Shown one piece after another: positions 1,626-13,035 of a stretch of 20,502 nt of DNA. Every line of letters begins with the position of its first letter. The stretch's first letter is position 1. The DNA lies in the IMG/VR virus record IMGVR_UViG_3300020172_002476, positions 1 to 20,502 of that record. One strand, given 5' to 3'. The notes below the pieces were generated by a model, which saw only the letters and a program-made list of their open reading frames with translations, was not told where the DNA came from and made no database searches. The stretch is from a virus. The translations under genes and the position numbers were made by a program.

Positions 1626-1957
1626 AATTGCTTTAACCCATCAGAAGAAACAATATACCACGAACTAAATCCGTAGTATAACTCAACACAAGCCCCTTTT
1701 TCAATATTAATTTCATTAAACTCTTCATCAATCAGACCTGTAATGGGTCTGATTTTTGTATTAGTTAACGCTTTAATAATTACGTGGTCAGTATTTTCAT
1801 GGTTTACAATAACCTCACAATTATCCACAAGTTTTGTAATTATAACCGATTCACCTTCTGTAGAATAATGATTGTCAGATACTATACAAATTTCAGATGT
1901 TTTTAAAACAACACCTGAAATTATTCTTTCCATTGGTATAGATTTTTGTATTGGCAT
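1622..1957 (-). CDS. Small beta-rich protein, possibly virion-associated
   Basis: This 111-residue protein is not recognised by name. It is built of short alternating hydrophobic strands with many Val and Ile and no signal peptide or membrane segment. The C-terminal stretch IEKGACVELYYGFSSWYIVSS resembles the 'G-x-x-V-x-L-x-Y-x-x-x-x-W-x-I-V' strand pair common at the ends of phage fibre and head-decoration domains, so a structural role is plausible but inferred. Its ATG overlaps the stop of the upstream gp13-like gene by one base (TAATG), which implies translational coupling and co-transcription. It has no TATTTAT element of its own. Its stop overlaps that of the DNA polymerase on the other strand. 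A plus-strand terminator hairpin is embedded in its coding sequence at 1730-1757. Confidence 0.75.
   Translation of the reverse strand: MPIQKSIPMERIISGVVLKTSEICIVSDNHYSTEGESVIITKLVDNCEVIVNHENTDHVIIKALTNTKIRPITGLIDEEFNEINIEKGACVELYYGFSSWYIVSSDGLKQF
1730..1757 (+). terminator. Rho-independent-type terminator for the polymerase transcript, inside the convergent gene
   Basis: A perfect 9-bp stem, AATCAGACC / GGTCTGATT, has a 7-nt loop and is followed by a T run at 1753-1757. It lies about 105 nt past the polymerase stop. In the opposite direction the stem is followed by GATG rather than a T run, so it should act only on plus-strand transcripts. It lies wholly within the coding sequence of the minus-strand 111-residue gene. 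Confidence 0.6.
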
Positions 1958-3078
1958 TAAACAACGTAAATTCCTCTTGGGAATGCTCTATATTTTAATT
2001 CTTTATTCAAGCTTTCTGTGATTGCGGCGTTTGTTTCAGAGAATCCTTTTGGATTAAGTGCCTCTAATCTTAGTTTCAAATTCTCTTCTAATTTCGCCTT
2101 TTCATCTTTACCTTCAGTTGCCAAAGATTGGTAATCCATAGTTAATTCTGAATCAGGAGTTTTTAAATTACCTGAATATTTTCCTCTAACTTTAGATAAT
2201 GTTTCTTTACAACTCGCAATAAACCATCTTCTAACAAATTGTTTTGCTGGATTATTTAAATCTTCCCATCTTAAAGGTGCCAATGGAACATCAGAAGGTA
2301 ATTTAATAATTTCAGGATTTGCGTTATAACAAGCGTTTTGTTGGTCAGCGTTACCAACTTCAACCTCATAATACCAATACCAAACTTGCATATTCTTCAA
2401 TTCAGAATTACCAAAGTCAAATTTTCCACCAGGTGTTTGCATTAAGTGAATTGCCTTTTTACCTTCAGGAAGCGCTGTCATTCTGTATGTTAAATCTCCC
2501 GCAATAATTCTTCTTTGAATGTTAATTTCTTGCATTCTTAACAACATATCAAACCCTGGCATCATAAAATATGAACCTGTGTATCCCATTTGAGAATATC
2601 CAGCAGGTCCTCCCATTCCGTATCCACCTAAGGCCCCAAAACTCCATGGGTCAAAAAGAACATTATTTTGAGATGATGGTGTAAACCACAAAAGTTCATT
2701 TACTTCTCGACCCGCAGGTATTTCATATATTTGTTGGCCGGGAACTAAAGTAATAAAATCTTTCTTTAAAACCGAATCCCCATTTGTTTGTAGACCAACG
2801 ATTTTTGAATATGCTTGCATGTATCTGTTAGTGTAGTCAAAATCCCTACTAACAAATGCATCGGCAACTGACTGAGTCTCGAGATTAAGATTATATAACT
2901 GAGACCACTGAGATTGTATTAACCAATCTTGAACATACTGAGAATAATCCCCGATAGAAAACTCCATTAATGTGTCCATCTGTTCGTCCTCTAATTCAAT
3001 AGAACGCAATGGGGCTCCTAAAATATGTCTTACTTTAGTGTAAAGTTCACTTCTTTCTGGTTCTGCAATAACTCCCAT
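1957..3078 (-). CDS. Putative neck protein, T4 gp13-like
   Basis: This 373-residue virion protein probably belongs to the head-tail connector. Residues 11-52 (VRHILGAPLRSIELEDEQMD, then a Glu/Tyr-rich helix) follow the layout of the N terminus of T4-type gp13 neck proteins: an arginine-rich helix, LG-x-P, a strand, D-x-Q-x-D and an E-x5-Y helix. Residues 147-175 form an unusual Gly/Met/Tyr-rich loop, which I infer to be an exposed insertion. The C-terminal third is helical and charged and ends FPRGIYVV. T4 gp13 is about 309 residues, so this one is longer. The start is the ATG at 3078, with TATTTAT 17 nt upstream, directly after the SOD gene stop. It is co-directional with the SOD fusion upstream and coupled to the 111-residue gene downstream. 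A different neck or adaptor protein is the main alternative. Confidence 0.5.
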   Translation of the reverse strand: MGVIAEPERSELYTKVRHILGAPLRSIELEDEQMDTLMEFSIGDYSQYVQDWLIQSQWSQLYNLNLETQSVADAFVSRDFDYTNRYMQAYSKIVGLQTNGDSVLKKDFITLVPGQQIYEIPAGREVNELLWFTPSSQNNVLFDPWSFGALGGYGMGGPAGYSQMGYTGSYFMMPGFDMLLRMQEINIQRRIIAGDLTYRMTALPEGKKAIHLMQTPGGKFDFGNSELKNMQVWYWYYEVEVGNADQQNACYNANPEIIKLPSDVPLAPLRWEDLNNPAKQFVRRWFIASCKETLSKVRGKYSGNLKTPDSELTMDYQSLATEGKDEKAKLEENLKLRLEALNPKGFSETNAAITESLNKELKYRAFPRGIYVV

Positions 3079-3102: not shown

Positions 3103-4638
3103 TCAATCTATTTCATTAATTAAATTTTCTGTTGGAATTTTAAAGTGGTCACCTGACGCATCAACATTTTCATTTTTGAAAACATATATTTTACCATTAG
3201 GGTATGCAAAGATTAATAGGTCTGTTTTATAACTTTTAACAAATCCTTTAATTTTAATTAGGTATTCACCATTGGATTGTGTAATAGAGTAAATAGGTTT
3301 TACTTGAGCAGTATTTTCTTTACCATTTATGTTTACAACAACGTCAACACCCCCGACCGCATCATTTTCCTTACCTAATCCACCAATTATTTTAGAAGTA
3401 CCTTTACCAAGAGAACTATTAATTTTTTCAGAAACGTAAATCTCAAGCTCATTACCCTTCTTGTTAGTTTTACCTAATACTGACATAATATTGGTTAGGG
3501 TATTGGATGACGGAAAAAGTCTATTTTTAAATTTTTTAAGATATTCACAAAATCTATAAACCTCATTTAATTGTTCTGAGGGTTTTTTACCAATAAGTTT
3601 AATTTCAGGTTGCCCGTATTTTTTTAATGCTTTGTTAATATCATTAAGTAAAATTGTAAACGCAATATAATTTGTGTTTAATTTATTAATTACCGAACGA
3701 CCTTTTTCTCCATTAATATCGTAAACTCCTGACATCTCATCGGGACCATATTCACCCTTTTCATAATAATTGTCAGGGTAAGTATCTTTTAAGATTGAGT
3801 CGATACATTTTCTAAAAGTCCACAATAATTTTTTATTATTACTCAATAAAAACGAATAGTCTGAGTATTCCTCACTACTTGGTTTGTGAGACCCTTTTTG
3901 TTCATTAATCATATATGACTCTTTAATGGTTTCTTCTTTTTTTACTTTTGACAAATATAATTCATTAACAAACTTCCAATTAATCGCATCCCAAAAATTT
4001 TGAATGTATTCGTCACGTTTGTTTTGATATTTTAAATAATATGCATGTTCCCACAAATCCAATCCTAATATCGGAAATCCACCTTTGTCAAAAATATTCA
4101 TTAATGGATTATCCTGATTTGGTGTGGACATAACTTTTAGATTACCACTCTTATTTAGAACTAACCAAACCCATCCTGAACCGAATCTCTTTTTAGCAAT
4201 TGTTTCAAACTTTTCTTTGAATTCTCTATAACTGCCAAAATCCTTTTTTATTTTGTTTAAGACATCACCACTTGGTTTTTGTGGTGTTGGGGATAACATC
4301 TTCCAAAACAATGCGTGGTTAAACGCTCCACCTGCATTATTTCTTATTGTTATATTATATTTCGATATTTGTCTAACAATCTTTTCTAACTCAACATCAC
4401 CATAGTCTTTCTTTCGTAATGCCGAGTTTAATTTATTCACATAACCCTTATAATGTTTCTGATAATGAAACTTCATAGTCTCGGGGTCAATAAATCGTCT
4501 TAATGATGCATAACCATAGGGTAATTTTTCAATACCTATAGTTTTCATCTCGTTGATAAAAAACTTGGTTTCAGGTAAACTTTTTTCCCCTGTTATTTTT
4601 TGTATTAAAGACTCAGATAATAAATTTAACGATTTCAT
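3103..4638 (-). CDS. Mn-type superoxide dismutase fused to a C-terminal PD-(D/E)xK-like domain
   Basis: This is a 511-residue two-domain protein. Residues about 38-230 are a Fe/Mn superoxide dismutase, which converts superoxide to oxygen and peroxide. All four metal ligands are in place: H58 (FHYQKH), H108 (NNAGGAFNH), and D194 and H198 (LDLWEHAYY). Second-shell H62, Y66 and W156, and Q175 in PNQD, are also present. Gly at the 'NNAGG' position together with Gln in NQD points to the manganese type. After a charged linker, residues about 255-511 form a separate domain ending in a restriction-nuclease-like pattern: E397/E399 in a helix, D432 (GVDVVV) and Q445-V-K447 after it. The first 35 residues are an extra leader absent from normal SODs. 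The ATG at 4638 is preferred over a TTG one codon upstream because TATTTAT ends 5 nt before it. The SOD call is secure; nuclease activity is inferred. Confidence 0.92.
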   Translation of the reverse strand: MKSLNLLSESLIQKITGEKSLPETKFFINEMKTIGIEKLPYGYASLRRFIDPETMKFHYQKHYKGYVNKLNSALRKKDYGDVELEKIVRQISKYNITIRNNAGGAFNHALFWKMLSPTPQKPSGDVLNKIKKDFGSYREFKEKFETIAKKRFGSGWVWLVLNKSGNLKVMSTPNQDNPLMNIFDKGGFPILGLDLWEHAYYLKYQNKRDEYIQNFWDAINWKFVNELYLSKVKKEETIKESYMINEQKGSHKPSSEEYSDYSFLLSNNKKLLWTFRKCIDSILKDTYPDNYYEKGEYGPDEMSGVYDINGEKGRSVINKLNTNYIAFTILLNDINKALKKYGQPEIKLIGKKPSEQLNEVYRFCEYLKKFKNRLFPSSNTLTNIMSVLGKTNKKGNELEIYVSEKINSSLGKGTSKIIGGLGKENDAVGGVDVVVNINGKENTAQVKPIYSITQSNGEYLIKIKGFVKSYKTDLLIFAYPNGKIYVFKNENVDASGDHFKIPTENLINEID

Positions 4639-4643
4639 CAATA

Positions 4644-4651: not shown

Positions 4652-6421
4652 TTACTTATTATTGATTTCGTTCAGGATTTGTTCAACTATGTCAGCATCA
4701 GTTTCTTGGATATCCCCCATTACGGTTCCAATAATCTTCTTTTTCTTATCTAAGATATCGTAAATTACCCCCTCCAAAGTATTCTCAAATATTGGATAGT
4801 AGATTGAAACTGAATTTTTTTGACCATATCTATATGCTCGGTCTTCGGCCTGTGAATGTTCAGCAGGTACAAATGATAAATCATTCATGATTACTGCCTC
4901 GGCTGCCGTCAATGTTAAACCTACACCAGCAGCTTTAATATTCCCACAAAACACTTGAACTTTTTCACTTTCCTGAAACTTATCTACAGCATCTTGTCGA
5001 GCAGGTTTAGGTGTTGACCCATCTAAATAAACTGACTTCTTACCAAAATGTTCATGTATCTTTTTTAAAGGTTCTGTAAAATTACTGAATATGATAACTT
5101 TCTTACCTTGCTCAATAATATTCTCGGCAAGTTCAATTGTGTGTGAAATTTTTTCTTCAGCAATGACCTGTCTAACCTTCATCAGTTTTGTAAACTGAAC
5201 TGATAATGATTTTGACTCATCTTGACGATTATTGTACCAATCATAATATTCCCCCATCAATCCTTCGTACAATCTCGATTTTAGTCTGAGATAAACAGGG
5301 GTCATAATTTTTTCGGGTAAATCTAAAACATCGGTTTTTAACCTTCTTAATATCTGACGAGATGTTCTGTCTCGAAGTTCTTCCAAATTAGATGCTCCCG
5401 TAACATTCCAAACCTTTTTATTACCAACTCTAAATTGATAACCTCCACAATAACGAATGGCGTAAGCCATCCAATTCTGACTAACAGGACTATCAATTAA
5501 CTTTAAAATGTTATAATAATTCATTGGACGAGAAGTCATCGGAGTACCTGTTAATAACCAAAGTTTTTTAATGTCTTTGGTTAAATCCATTATAATTTTT
5601 GTACGTTGAGCTTGGGCATTTGAAACATAATGAGCCTCGTCGATAACAACCAAATCAAATTTTGATTTTAAAATAATTGAATTGTCTTTATCCTTAGGGT
5701 CGTGGAAGTTTTTTAGAATGTCGTAGTTTGTAATGATATAATCAGCGTCTTCAAACTTTTTACCTTCACAGATATATACACTCTTTTCGGTGTAATTACG
5801 AATTTCTCGTTCCCAATTTATTTTTAAAGATGCGGGACAAATAATTAAAACTCTTTTAGACCCACTCTCTAATGAAGCGATTACCGTTGATGTGGTCTTA
5901 CCAAGACCCATATCATCGGCTAAAATAAATTTATCGTTTTTTAATAATTTTTCGATTGCTTCTTTTTGGTGAGATAGTGGAGGACGATTATCATACTTTG
6001 AATAGTCTACCTCAACGATGTTTTCTTTATACTCTTTAATAATTGCCGCTTTAGGAACCCAAAAATCATGAATGGTATCAGCACTAAAAACCTTACCCCA
6101 TATGTGATATGATTTATCTTTTTCAACTAACAACTTCTCAATGTAGATTTTATCGGGTTCTTTAATAAACGGATTATCCTCCACCAATTTTTTTGAGAAA
6201 TATGAGTCGATATCGACCCATTTTTTTGCAACTTTTGGGTTTATGTTTCTAAAGTTTAGAACATAATCGCACTGAGCTCTTGTGGGAACATACTTTTTAT
6301 TTACCTCGCATTGTTTTTTTATTTTAAGAATATAGTTGTTTGACCCGTTATATTCTTCCAAAACTTTTAAGGTTTCCTGTTCGATACTAATATGTGGTTT
6401 TTGGTTCTCCAAGTTATTCAA
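4652..6421 (-). CDS. SNF2-family DNA helicase/translocase
   Basis: This 589-residue superfamily 2 ATPase probably remodels forks or recombination intermediates, similar in role to SMARCAL1-like annealing helicases or T4 UvsW. That biological role is inferred. Visible motifs: DDMGLGKTT at 169-177 (Walker A), CPASLKINWERE (motif Ia), DEAH at 261-264, LLTGTPMTSRP (motif III), VIIFSNFT (motif IV), GVGLTLT at 499-505 and SQAEDRAYRYGQ around 523-534 (motif VI with the SNF2-type arginines). The first 145 residues form an N-terminal domain I do not recognise. There is no in-frame ATG before the Walker A Met, so the start is taken as TTG at 6421. An upstream stop at 6428-6430 limits alternatives. An out-of-frame ATG lies at 6428, so either TTG is real or a one-base error exists in the T run between them. 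It is divergent from the HNH gene, with a 44-nt gap. Confidence 0.95.
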   Translation of the reverse strand: MNNLENQKPHISIEQETLKVLEEYNGSNNYILKIKKQCEVNKKYVPTRAQCDYVLNFRNINPKVAKKWVDIDSYFSKKLVEDNPFIKEPDKIYIEKLLVEKDKSYHIWGKVFSADTIHDFWVPKAAIIKEYKENIVEVDYSKYDNRPPLSHQKEAIEKLLKNDKFILADDMGLGKTTSTVIASLESGSKRVLIICPASLKINWEREIRNYTEKSVYICEGKKFEDADYIITNYDILKNFHDPKDKDNSIILKSKFDLVVIDEAHYVSNAQAQRTKIIMDLTKDIKKLWLLTGTPMTSRPMNYYNILKLIDSPVSQNWMAYAIRYCGGYQFRVGNKKVWNVTGASNLEELRDRTSRQILRRLKTDVLDLPEKIMTPVYLRLKSRLYEGLMGEYYDWYNNRQDESKSLSVQFTKLMKVRQVIAEEKISHTIELAENIIEQGKKVIIFSNFTEPLKKIHEHFGKKSVYLDGSTPKPARQDAVDKFQESEKVQVFCGNIKAAGVGLTLTAAEAVIMNDLSFVPAEHSQAEDRAYRYGQKNSVSIYYPIFENTLEGVIYDILDKKKKIIGTVMGDIQETDADIVEQILNEINNK

Positions 6422-6438
6422 AATACATTATTACAATA

Positions 6439-6445
6439 ATAAACA
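6439..6445 (-). promoter_or_regulatory. Variant element TGTTTAT upstream of the helicase
   Basis: On the minus strand TGTTTATTATTG closely matches the TATTTATTATTG before the SOD gene, differing by one base. It lies 17 nt before the TTG start. It is weaker evidence than the exact copies. Confidence 0.3.
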
Positions 6446-6454
6446 AAATAAAGA

Positions 6455-6461
6455 TATTTAT
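6455..6461 (+). promoter_or_regulatory. TATTTAT element for the HNH gene
   Basis: TATTTAT ends 4 nt before the ATG at 6466 (context GATATTTATCAATATG). It supports this ATG over the upstream in-frame ATG at 6394, which lies inside the divergent helicase gene. Confidence 0.5.
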
Positions 6462-6465
6462 CAAT

Positions 6466-7104
6466 ATGTCTACGAGTGTTAAAAAATGTTCAAAATGTGA
6501 AACAGAAAAATTACTGTGTGAGTTTGATAAATGTTCAAAAACTAAATGTGGACATAGGTCAGTTTGCAAACTTTGTAGAAAAAAAGAAAGAATTGATAAT
6601 AGGGATTTGATTAAAGTTAGTAAGAAAAAATATTACGAAAAAAATAAAGAGTTGGTTTTGGTAAGAGCTAAAGAGTATAAAGATAAAAATAAAGAAAGAG
6701 TATTGATAAGTGCTAAAAATTATCGAGAAAATAACAAAGATAAAGTTAACCTATCAAAAAAAACATCTACTCGTAAAAAGTATAAAGAAGATGGTTTATT
6801 TAGATTAAAAACCCAATTAAGAAAATCGGTAAACAGGTATTTTAAACAAACAGAAAAAAGTAAAAAAACTTTTGAAATTGTAGGATGTACACCATCTTAT
6901 TTAAAAGAATATGTTGAGGGTAAATTTAAATCTTGGATGACATGGGATAATTATGGGTATGGTAAAAATAAATGGGTTATTGACCATATTAAACCTCTTT
7001 CATCTGCCAATAATAAAGAAGAATTATACTTGTTATGTCATTACACAAATTTACAACCTCTTTCTTGGGAAGATAACATGAAAAAAAGTGATAAAATATT
7101 ATGA
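6466..7104 (+). CDS. HNH endonuclease with N-terminal zinc-binding domain
   Basis: This 212-residue protein is probably a free-standing homing-type DNA endonuclease. Residues 8-37 hold seven cysteines, including CSKC and CKLC pairs, consistent with a zinc ribbon. Residues 54-98 are three imperfect 15-residue repeats (K-x-Y-x-x-K/N-N-K-x-x-V pattern) rich in Lys and Glu, probably a helical linker. The nuclease core is at the C terminus: D173-H174 (VIDHIKPL), N195 (YTNLQPLSW) and N204 (EDNMKKSDK), the classic H-N-N/H arrangement. It sits at the junction between the minus-strand and plus-strand blocks. Its TGA overlaps the next ATG as ATGA, so the neck-like gene probably depends on it for transcription and coupling. 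The gene is markedly rich in A runs. The HNH class is secure; homing behaviour is inferred. Confidence 0.9.
   Translation: MSTSVKKCSKCETEKLLCEFDKCSKTKCGHRSVCKLCRKKERIDNRDLIKVSKKKYYEKNKELVLVRAKEYKDKNKERVLISAKNYRENNKDKVNLSKKTSTRKKYKEDGLFRLKTQLRKSVNRYFKQTEKSKKTFEIVGCTPSYLKEYVEGKFKSWMTWDNYGYGKNKWVIDHIKPLSSANNKEELYLLCHYTNLQPLSWEDNMKKSDKIL
6625..6759 (+). repeat. Three tandem 45-nt / 15-residue imperfect repeats in the HNH gene
   Basis: The units start at 6625, 6670 and 6715. They read KKYYEKNKELVLVRA, KEYKDKNKERVLISA and KNYRENNKDKVNLSK. Conserved positions are K1, Y3, N7, K8 and V11. They link the zinc domain to the nuclease core. Confidence 0.8.
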
Positions 7105-12216: not shown

Positions 12217-13035
12217 ATGAAAGTTTATCTTGTAGAAAATTTTAGAGAAGAATTAACTCCCGAATTAAAGTATTATGCATTTGATTGGGATGATAATATT
12301 ATGATGATGCCAACCCAAATCATTCTTAAAGACGATAAAGGTAATGAGGTTGGAATGTCTACTGAAGATTTTGCGGAATACCGAGTTAAAATTGGGGTGG
12401 AACCTTTTGAGTATAAAAAGAAAAATATTGTGGGGTTTGCGGAAGACCCATTTAGATATTTCTCAACTAAGGGAGATAAAAGATTTATAGTTGACTCATT
12501 ATTGGCAAAAACTGGTCCGGCTTGGGACGACTTTGTTGAGGCAATTAATGGGGGGTCAATCTTTTCGATTGTTACTGCGAGAGGTCATTCTCCATTAGTT
12601 ATTAGAAAGGCAATCGAAAATATGATTAACACCAATTTCAAAGGGATATCTAAAAAAGAACTTGTTAAAAATTTAAGAAAATTCAGAGATATCGCCGGTG
12701 AAGAAGATATGTCGGATGATGAATTAATTGATACTTACATGAATATGAATAAGTATTATCCTGTAACATTTGGAGCTGGTTCGGCACAAAGTCCTGAAAA
12801 GGGAAAGGTTGACGCTTTAAGAGAATTTCAAGAATATGTAAAATACATTGCCAAAAGATTACATAAACCAGGAATGTTTAAAAATGAAATATCAAATAGA
12901 TTTATACCACAGATAGGATTTTCAGATGATGATTTAAGAAACCTAGAGAAAGTTAAACAAGAATTAGGAAAAGACCCAGAAAATATTATTAAGACAATTT
13001 CAACTCATGGAGGAGTTAAGAAAGATTATTATTAA
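12217..13035 (+). CDS. HAD-superfamily-like hydrolase/phosphatase
   Basis: This 272-residue protein has the four haloacid-dehalogenase motifs in order. Motif I is AFDWDDNI, with D23 as candidate nucleophile and D25 as acid/base. Motif II is SIVTARGHS, with T120. The motif III lysine is in SPEKGKVDA (K195 or K197). Motif IV is IGFSDDDLRN (D237-D239). A helical segment at about 140-180 between motifs II and III may be a cap. HAD enzymes transfer phosphate from small molecules, proteins or nucleic-acid ends; the substrate here cannot be read from sequence. Its position between sheath and tube is unusual for an enzyme. It has its own TATTTAT element and follows a terminator, but no clear terminator follows it. 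The first 13 residues (MKVYLVENFREEL) precede the fold and resemble a short helical leader. Confidence 0.8.
   Translation: MKVYLVENFREELTPELKYYAFDWDDNIMMMPTQIILKDDKGNEVGMSTEDFAEYRVKIGVEPFEYKKKNIVGFAEDPFRYFSTKGDKRFIVDSLLAKTGPAWDDFVEAINGGSIFSIVTARGHSPLVIRKAIENMINTNFKGISKKELVKNLRKFRDIAGEEDMSDDELIDTYMNMNKYYPVTFGAGSAQSPEKGKVDALREFQEYVKYIAKRLHKPGMFKNEISNRFIPQIGFSDDDLRNLEKVKQELGKDPENIIKTISTHGGVKKDYY

Follow-up and report, generated by a model that had tools for sequence, protein, structure and literature searches.

In bacteriophage T4, the internal head proteins IPI-IPIII and Alt are processed by the head protease gp21, which cuts after the motif L/I-X-E; the internal proteins carry propeptides that act as capsid targeting sequences, and IPIII bearing D in place of the E of the motif is packaged but escapes processing (PMC9026906). 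The inner-body and ejection proteins of the large phages phiKZ and SPN3US are also processed by a protease and packed in the head (PMC9026906, PMC13282480). Among viruses of eukaryotes, the virion of the chlorovirus PBCV-1 carries a Cu/Zn superoxide dismutase (SOD) together with two DNA restriction endonucleases; the SOD is thought to lower early superoxide and the nucleases to degrade host DNA early in infection (PMC7019647).

The gene described here encodes a 511-residue protein with a variable leader, a Mn/Fe-type SOD, a linker and a nuclease-like half of two domains (Table 1). It lies in the window, by which we mean the whole stretch of viral DNA that was analysed (20,502 nucleotides; a 20.5-kb fragment that contains no protease gene). 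The coordinates and the length of the protein in a preliminary description of this DNA, made from the sequence alone, are correct, with the gene on the minus strand, and a SNF2-type helicase upstream and a neck/adaptor protein downstream adjoin it, as was also described there. The homologues start at the same ATG as the window gene; an in-frame alternative start is a TTG at 4641. The plus strand across 3103-4638 is dense in stops. An ORF at 6394-7104 of the window looks like an HNH endonuclease, and its relatives vary in position between related loci, the behaviour expected of a mobile gene. We consider it likely that the gene encodes a T4-type internal head polyprotein of a jumbo phage, because its leader and linker end in conserved head-protease motifs, relatives of the phage carry the corresponding protease genes, and the SOD forms a cassette that is bounded by these sites and has been lost repeatedly. 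Packaging, cleavage, ejection and both enzyme activities are inferred.

Table 1. Features of the fusion gene and its immediate neighbours (window coordinates)
Feature	Coordinates	Strand	Basis
Whole gene, 511 aa	3103..4638	-	ATG 4638, stop 3103-3105
Leader, residues 1-30, ending at predicted site F-I-N-E|M	4549..4638	-	E30 conserved, rest variable
Predicted head-protease site 1 (I28-N29-E30)	4549..4557	-	Motif L/I-X-E of T4 gp21
Mn/Fe superoxide dismutase, residues 31-230	3949..4548	-	Pfam, PDB relatives, ligands invariant
SOD ligand codons	H58 4465-4467; H108 4315-4317; D194 4057-4059; H198 4045-4047	-	
Linker, residues 231-247, tandem sites I238-K-E240 and I244-N-E246/Q247	3898..3948	-	
Predicted head-protease site 2 (I244-N245-E246)	3901..3909	-	Conservation; SOD-less join at equivalent place
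Helical middle domain, residues 248-389	3472..3897	-	AF2 pLDDT 91; conserved GRSVxNKxNTNY
PD-(D/E)xK nuclease-like domain, residues 390-511	3106..3471	-	Fold match and catalytic residues
Nuclease residue codons	E399 3442-3444; D432 3343-3345; Q445 3304-3306; K447 3298-3300	-	
Upstream neighbour: SNF2/UvsW-like helicase	4652..6421	-	Member of conserved block
Downstream neighbour: neck / head-tail adaptor (PHROG 211, Ad2)	1957..3078	-	Member of conserved block

Residues 38-227 are spanned by the Pfam families Sod_Fe_N (E = 7e-22; 78 bits against a Pfam cut-off of 27) and Sod_Fe_C (E = 5e-41; 139 bits against 20.9), and among solved structures the closest are MnSODs, 1gv3 ranking first (E = 1.8e-62). 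The four metal ligands (H58, H108, D194 and H198) and the second-shell residues H62, Y66 and Q175, which the preliminary description had reported as intact in a Mn-type enzyme, are all present and are invariant in 37 homologues that share less than 90% identity. Its further suggestion that the active site is maintained by selection agrees with the dN/dS ratios for 31 disjoint pairs, by which the SOD is the most strongly purified part of the gene (0.05, compared with 0.19 for the leader, 0.16 for the linker and 0.09-0.10 for the two domains of the nuclease half); SOD activity itself is inferred. With ratios of 0.05 for the SOD and 0.10 for the PD-(D/E)xK domain, the fusion gene is not a chance pattern. 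In an AlphaFold2 (AF2) model of the full-length protein the SOD half is poor and the leader and linker are of low confidence, which is weak evidence on the latter two since the alignment is shallow.

The nearest cellular SODs are those of Bacteroidota, which are about 50% identical to the phage SOD and have identical ligands, but lack both the head-protease leader and the nuclease domain. In a tree, the phage SODs form one clade separate from 63 bacterial rows, and a single acquisition by these phages would thus fit. Many matches that are nominally phage SODs look like bacterial contigs and were left out. Vibrio phage 2.275.O and Pseudomonas phage PA5oct encode stand-alone SODs in which the four ligands are intact but H62 and Q175 have been lost. 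The PA5oct SOD (L136, 2935-3483) is divergent, and the note 'ESI-MS/MS' in its record suggests detection by mass spectrometry; a literature search found no paper confirming that this note refers to the virion.

The nuclease half was modelled separately (AlphaFold2, residues 249-511, 42 homologues in the alignment) with a pLDDT of 90.8. Foldseek gave only one match below 0.001, the homing endonuclease I-Ssp6803I (2ost, E = 5e-4), which covers the last 120 residues. For the same 120 residues, VIA-align returned archaeal Hjc resolvases (Z = 7.1), NhoI (6.5), HhaI (5.7) and DpnI (5.3), with SPARDA also listed. I-Ssp6803I is itself a QxK enzyme. Although Z scores of about 7 would be weak on their own, we accept the PD-(D/E)xK fold because the leading matches share this one fold and the residues expected of it (E399, D432, Q445 and K447) are invariant in the 37 homologues; no superposition on a solved active site lies behind the residue assignment. 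A C-terminal domain of this type had been proposed in the preliminary description, and the separately modelled half bears this out at the level of fold and residues, with no sign of an unrelated fold, cleavage being inferred. The proposal had left the acidic position between E397 and E399; E399 is the invariant one and E397 varies in the alignment.

By sequence, the nuclease half seems to represent a PD-(D/E)xK family that has not been described. Searches of Pfam, PHROGs, PADLOC and NCBIfam gave no convincing match to it, a sequence-profile search of the PDB gave none, and the family searches found no known relative of the helical middle domain. A 501-residue protein of an uncultured phage (A0A6J5L953; UniProt via BFVD) matches the nuclease half with 48% identity over the aligned part and is annotated only as 'superoxide dismutase'. 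The same nuclease half is held by a 1113-residue protein of an uncultured marine phage (UniProt A0A8D9CCA0; TM 0.80), perhaps with another cassette. As activity has not been demonstrated and no member of the family is characterised, the C-terminal fold could merely bind DNA or protein without cutting and so hold the SOD in the head. We find this quite improbable, given that all four presumed catalytic residues are invariant and that the part of the protein which is always kept (see below) is the nuclease and not the SOD.

The ranking of Hjc in the VIA-align comparison, together with the adjoining neck genes, would also accommodate a packaged head protein whose nuclease, perhaps a resolvase of the Holliday-junction type, works while particles are assembled or DNA is packaged, with the SOD protecting the particle. 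Z scores of about 7 are, however, common to restriction and homing enzymes, so the fold cannot give the substrate, and the best Foldseek match is I-Ssp6803I; moreover, there is little obvious use for a SOD on a resting particle. This role in assembly is possible but rather unlikely.

The features that suggest an internal head polyprotein cut into two enzymes lie outside the two folded halves. The leader is highly variable except for its [IL]xE end. E30 is found in 35 of 37 non-redundant homologues, always with I, L or V at P3 and usually followed by M or A, and in the other two the motif is shifted by a few residues (PIQE/Q or QIDE/A); [ILV]xE is thus at or near E30 in all 37, with V in two. 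In the linker, E246 is found in 38 of 39 homologues and I, L or V at P3 in 38 of 39, the next residue being mostly G, S, Q or A. Counted as [IL]xE, the linker motif is present in 36 of 37 homologues (LVKE in the remaining one), and most have a second [IL]xE about ten residues before E246. One homologue (L068) has lost site 2 and retained KLNE. A cut at E30 would leave the SOD starting eight residues before LPY, where the commonest cellular offset is seven, and residue 31 is accordingly one residue ahead of the usual cellular SOD start. L/I-x-E is a short motif, which counts against the head-polyprotein reading, and in a test of leader types on 134 ortholog triples E was not separated from the control residues. 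An internal translation start at M31 was rejected as a general explanation because six of the 37 homologues carry A there. A candidate late-promoter motif, TATAAATA, was also discarded, its occurrence being at chance level.

Relatives of the fusion protein are encoded by at least 595 IMG/VR stretches. The preliminary description had called a phage-encoded SOD rare, which does not apply within this phage group, where the fusion is common. We parsed 241 viral loci, drawn from many metagenomes and with some contigs included more than once: 175 encode SOD and nuclease, so that the same fusion recurs in other phage contigs, and 66 encode the nuclease only. With or without the SOD, the gene order is helicase, fusion or nuclease gene, neck protein and a small gene, with DNA polymerase on the opposite strand. 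An assembly artefact joining two genes, for which we found no supporting evidence, has next to no probability and can be ruled out, since the same join occurs at 175 loci from many metagenomes and, with few exceptions, has the helicase and the neck gene on either side. Homologues without the SOD, which might have pointed to misassembly, do exist but occupy the same locus.

The loci without SOD are the strongest evidence for a cassette bounded by the sites. In these, a similar leader (about 14-30 residues) continues through [IL]xE directly into the nuclease, and [ILV]xE is retained in 22 of 23 distinct SOD-less proteins. L235 and related loci have the leader MKNTENKVNLIIEEIKKNETDRKVTLILSE joined straight to SKAEKCS..., with which the nuclease half begins, and L248, the sister of a SOD-bearing gene, has a different leader that ends NLIKE/S. 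A third form (L374, L376 and others) reads SINE/MKKIEIEKL-KSIISE/GKSERC, in which the first SOD residues are joined in frame to the end of the linker; this scar keeps both sites, and the DNA is 89% identical to that of a SOD-bearing gene. One SOD-less group (L343 to L346) has LVLIQ where LVLxE is expected, which, like the loss of site 2 in L068, counts against the head-polyprotein reading. The SOD-less rows are nested within the SOD-bearing tree (the L374 set was merged with its SOD-bearing neighbour), the root of which is not known, and on this tree the simplest history would be loss of the SOD in at least three lineages. A 308-kb record with a SOD-less locus has no SOD elsewhere in the record. 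The SOD is therefore optional, as the loci that lack it keep both leader and nuclease. A distant stand-alone homologue of the nuclease (L221; LR745206.1, 634 kb; hhalign 2e-8) starts MKKFTEYIKE/SS. Proteins encoded near it start MRLKRFNKFKINES, MRHLKRFNES, MKKFTEYIKES and so on, resembling T4 capsid targeting sequences.

Retention of the leader when the SOD is lost bears on whether the protein is instead an uncut bifunctional enzyme of the infected cell, with the SOD tethered to a nuclease of phage DNA metabolism and nothing packaged. Such an enzyme would suit a gene that follows directly on a helicase (after about 11 bases); protection of the infected cell could be all that phage MnSODs provide, and some jumbo phages have a stand-alone SOD among non-head genes. 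It would leave unexplained why the leader persists without the SOD, why the motif of a head protease stands at the joints and why, in each of two otherwise variable stretches, the E residue is conserved more than any other position, and we judge it unlikely.

A gp21-family Peptidase_S77 is encoded in six of six relative records longer than 155 kb and also in both relative records near 300 kb; no S77 protease was found in a 177-kb record (G018), which is possibly a fragment. The major capsid protein of the relatives is gp23-like, with SFLINE/A where T4 gp23 has SFLTE/A, and its nearest cultured relatives include Flavobacterium phages. Since the nearest cellular SODs are also from Bacteroidota, the host likely belongs to this phylum. 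In three relatives of 242-322 kb (among L088-L134), [IL]xE[ASGMNQ] occurs at 59, 66 and 75 places within residues 5-40 of the proteins, about twice the 24.5, 30.3 and 30.3 expected from within-protein shuffles (sd about 5). No comparable excess was seen in these three genomes with D, K, Q or N in place of E, and Bacteroidota genes, used as a control, have no N-terminal excess of [IL]xE. Judged from these counts, many proteins of these phages may be processed head proteins. A HAD-like protein at 12217-13035 of the window (YYAFDWDDN) starts MKVYLVE, and its orthologues start MLKNRKLIE/G and MRKKYILE/G, resembling a short T4-like leader. Near the head genes of other records, proteins at G004:250795-252153, G001:199305-200600 and G003:110580-111905 have variable starts and a conserved NLKE/RLNE/KINE followed by API...YEGPERM.

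On the head-polyprotein reading, the leader would take the chain into the prohead core, as T4 capsid targeting sequences do. The gp21-family protease of the phage would then cut after [IL]xE at E30 and E246, and probably also after E240, the other site of the tandem. The products, an ordinary MnSOD and a nuclease of the PD-(D/E)xK type still carrying the helical domain, would remain in the head and be ejected with the DNA; the SOD would lower superoxide in the first minutes of infection and the nuclease would cut DNA, most likely that of the host or of a competitor, a target that is inferred. Neither packaging nor cleavage has been demonstrated, as we found no virion proteomics for these phages, and ejection, the two activities and their targets are likewise inferences. 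The preliminary description had the fusion pair oxygen-radical removal with DNA cleavage or binding: the pairing stands, but the chain is probably cut apart, so that the two activities would be co-delivered and not joined in one enzyme. Its suggestion of a role in the virion or in host takeover agrees with the present results, with packaging inferred.

If this is correct, phages can deliver a redox enzyme with the genome and not only proteins for host takeover, and the superoxide present when infection begins would seem to affect whether it succeeds. A polyprotein would be cut inside the capsid into two enzymes, one of them a cassette gained or lost at these cut sites. Being in excess close to the N termini of proteins, [IL]xE would also serve as an easy means of listing head-packaged candidates in uncultured jumbo phages.

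Compared with the T4 internal proteins and Alt, the fusion protein has the same kind of leader ending in L/I-x-E, and the relatives of its phage, like T4, have a gp21-family protease and a gp23-like capsid protein; ejection with the DNA is assumed. The leader of about 30 residues exceeds the 10-19 residues of T4 internal-protein propeptides, and only its end shows a recognisable likeness to T4 leaders. The fusion also differs from T4 in having an internal site whose cleavage would yield two enzymes, in its cargo (a SOD and a PD-(D/E)xK nuclease) and in the SOD being an optional cassette. The phiKZ protease recognises S/A-X-E, unlike the [IL]xE of the fusion. With I-Ssp6803I, Hjc and other PD-(D/E)xK nucleases the phage domain has in common the fold and the E-D-(E/Q)xK residues, but it has an extra helical domain and no convincing family match by sequence. 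A literature search that excluded most subscription journals did not find the fusion described, and superoxide does not come up in the jumbo-phage review consulted. We put at about even chances the broader proposal that this is the first phage known to inject an antioxidant enzyme and a nuclease, as infection starts, from a head-delivered polyprotein with exchangeable cassettes between protease sites, and as such a bacterial counterpart to the cargo of SOD and nucleases in chloroviruses. PBCV-1 differs from it in having separate genes, a Cu/Zn rather than a Mn enzyme and an algal host, and the resemblance would be convergent, not homologous.
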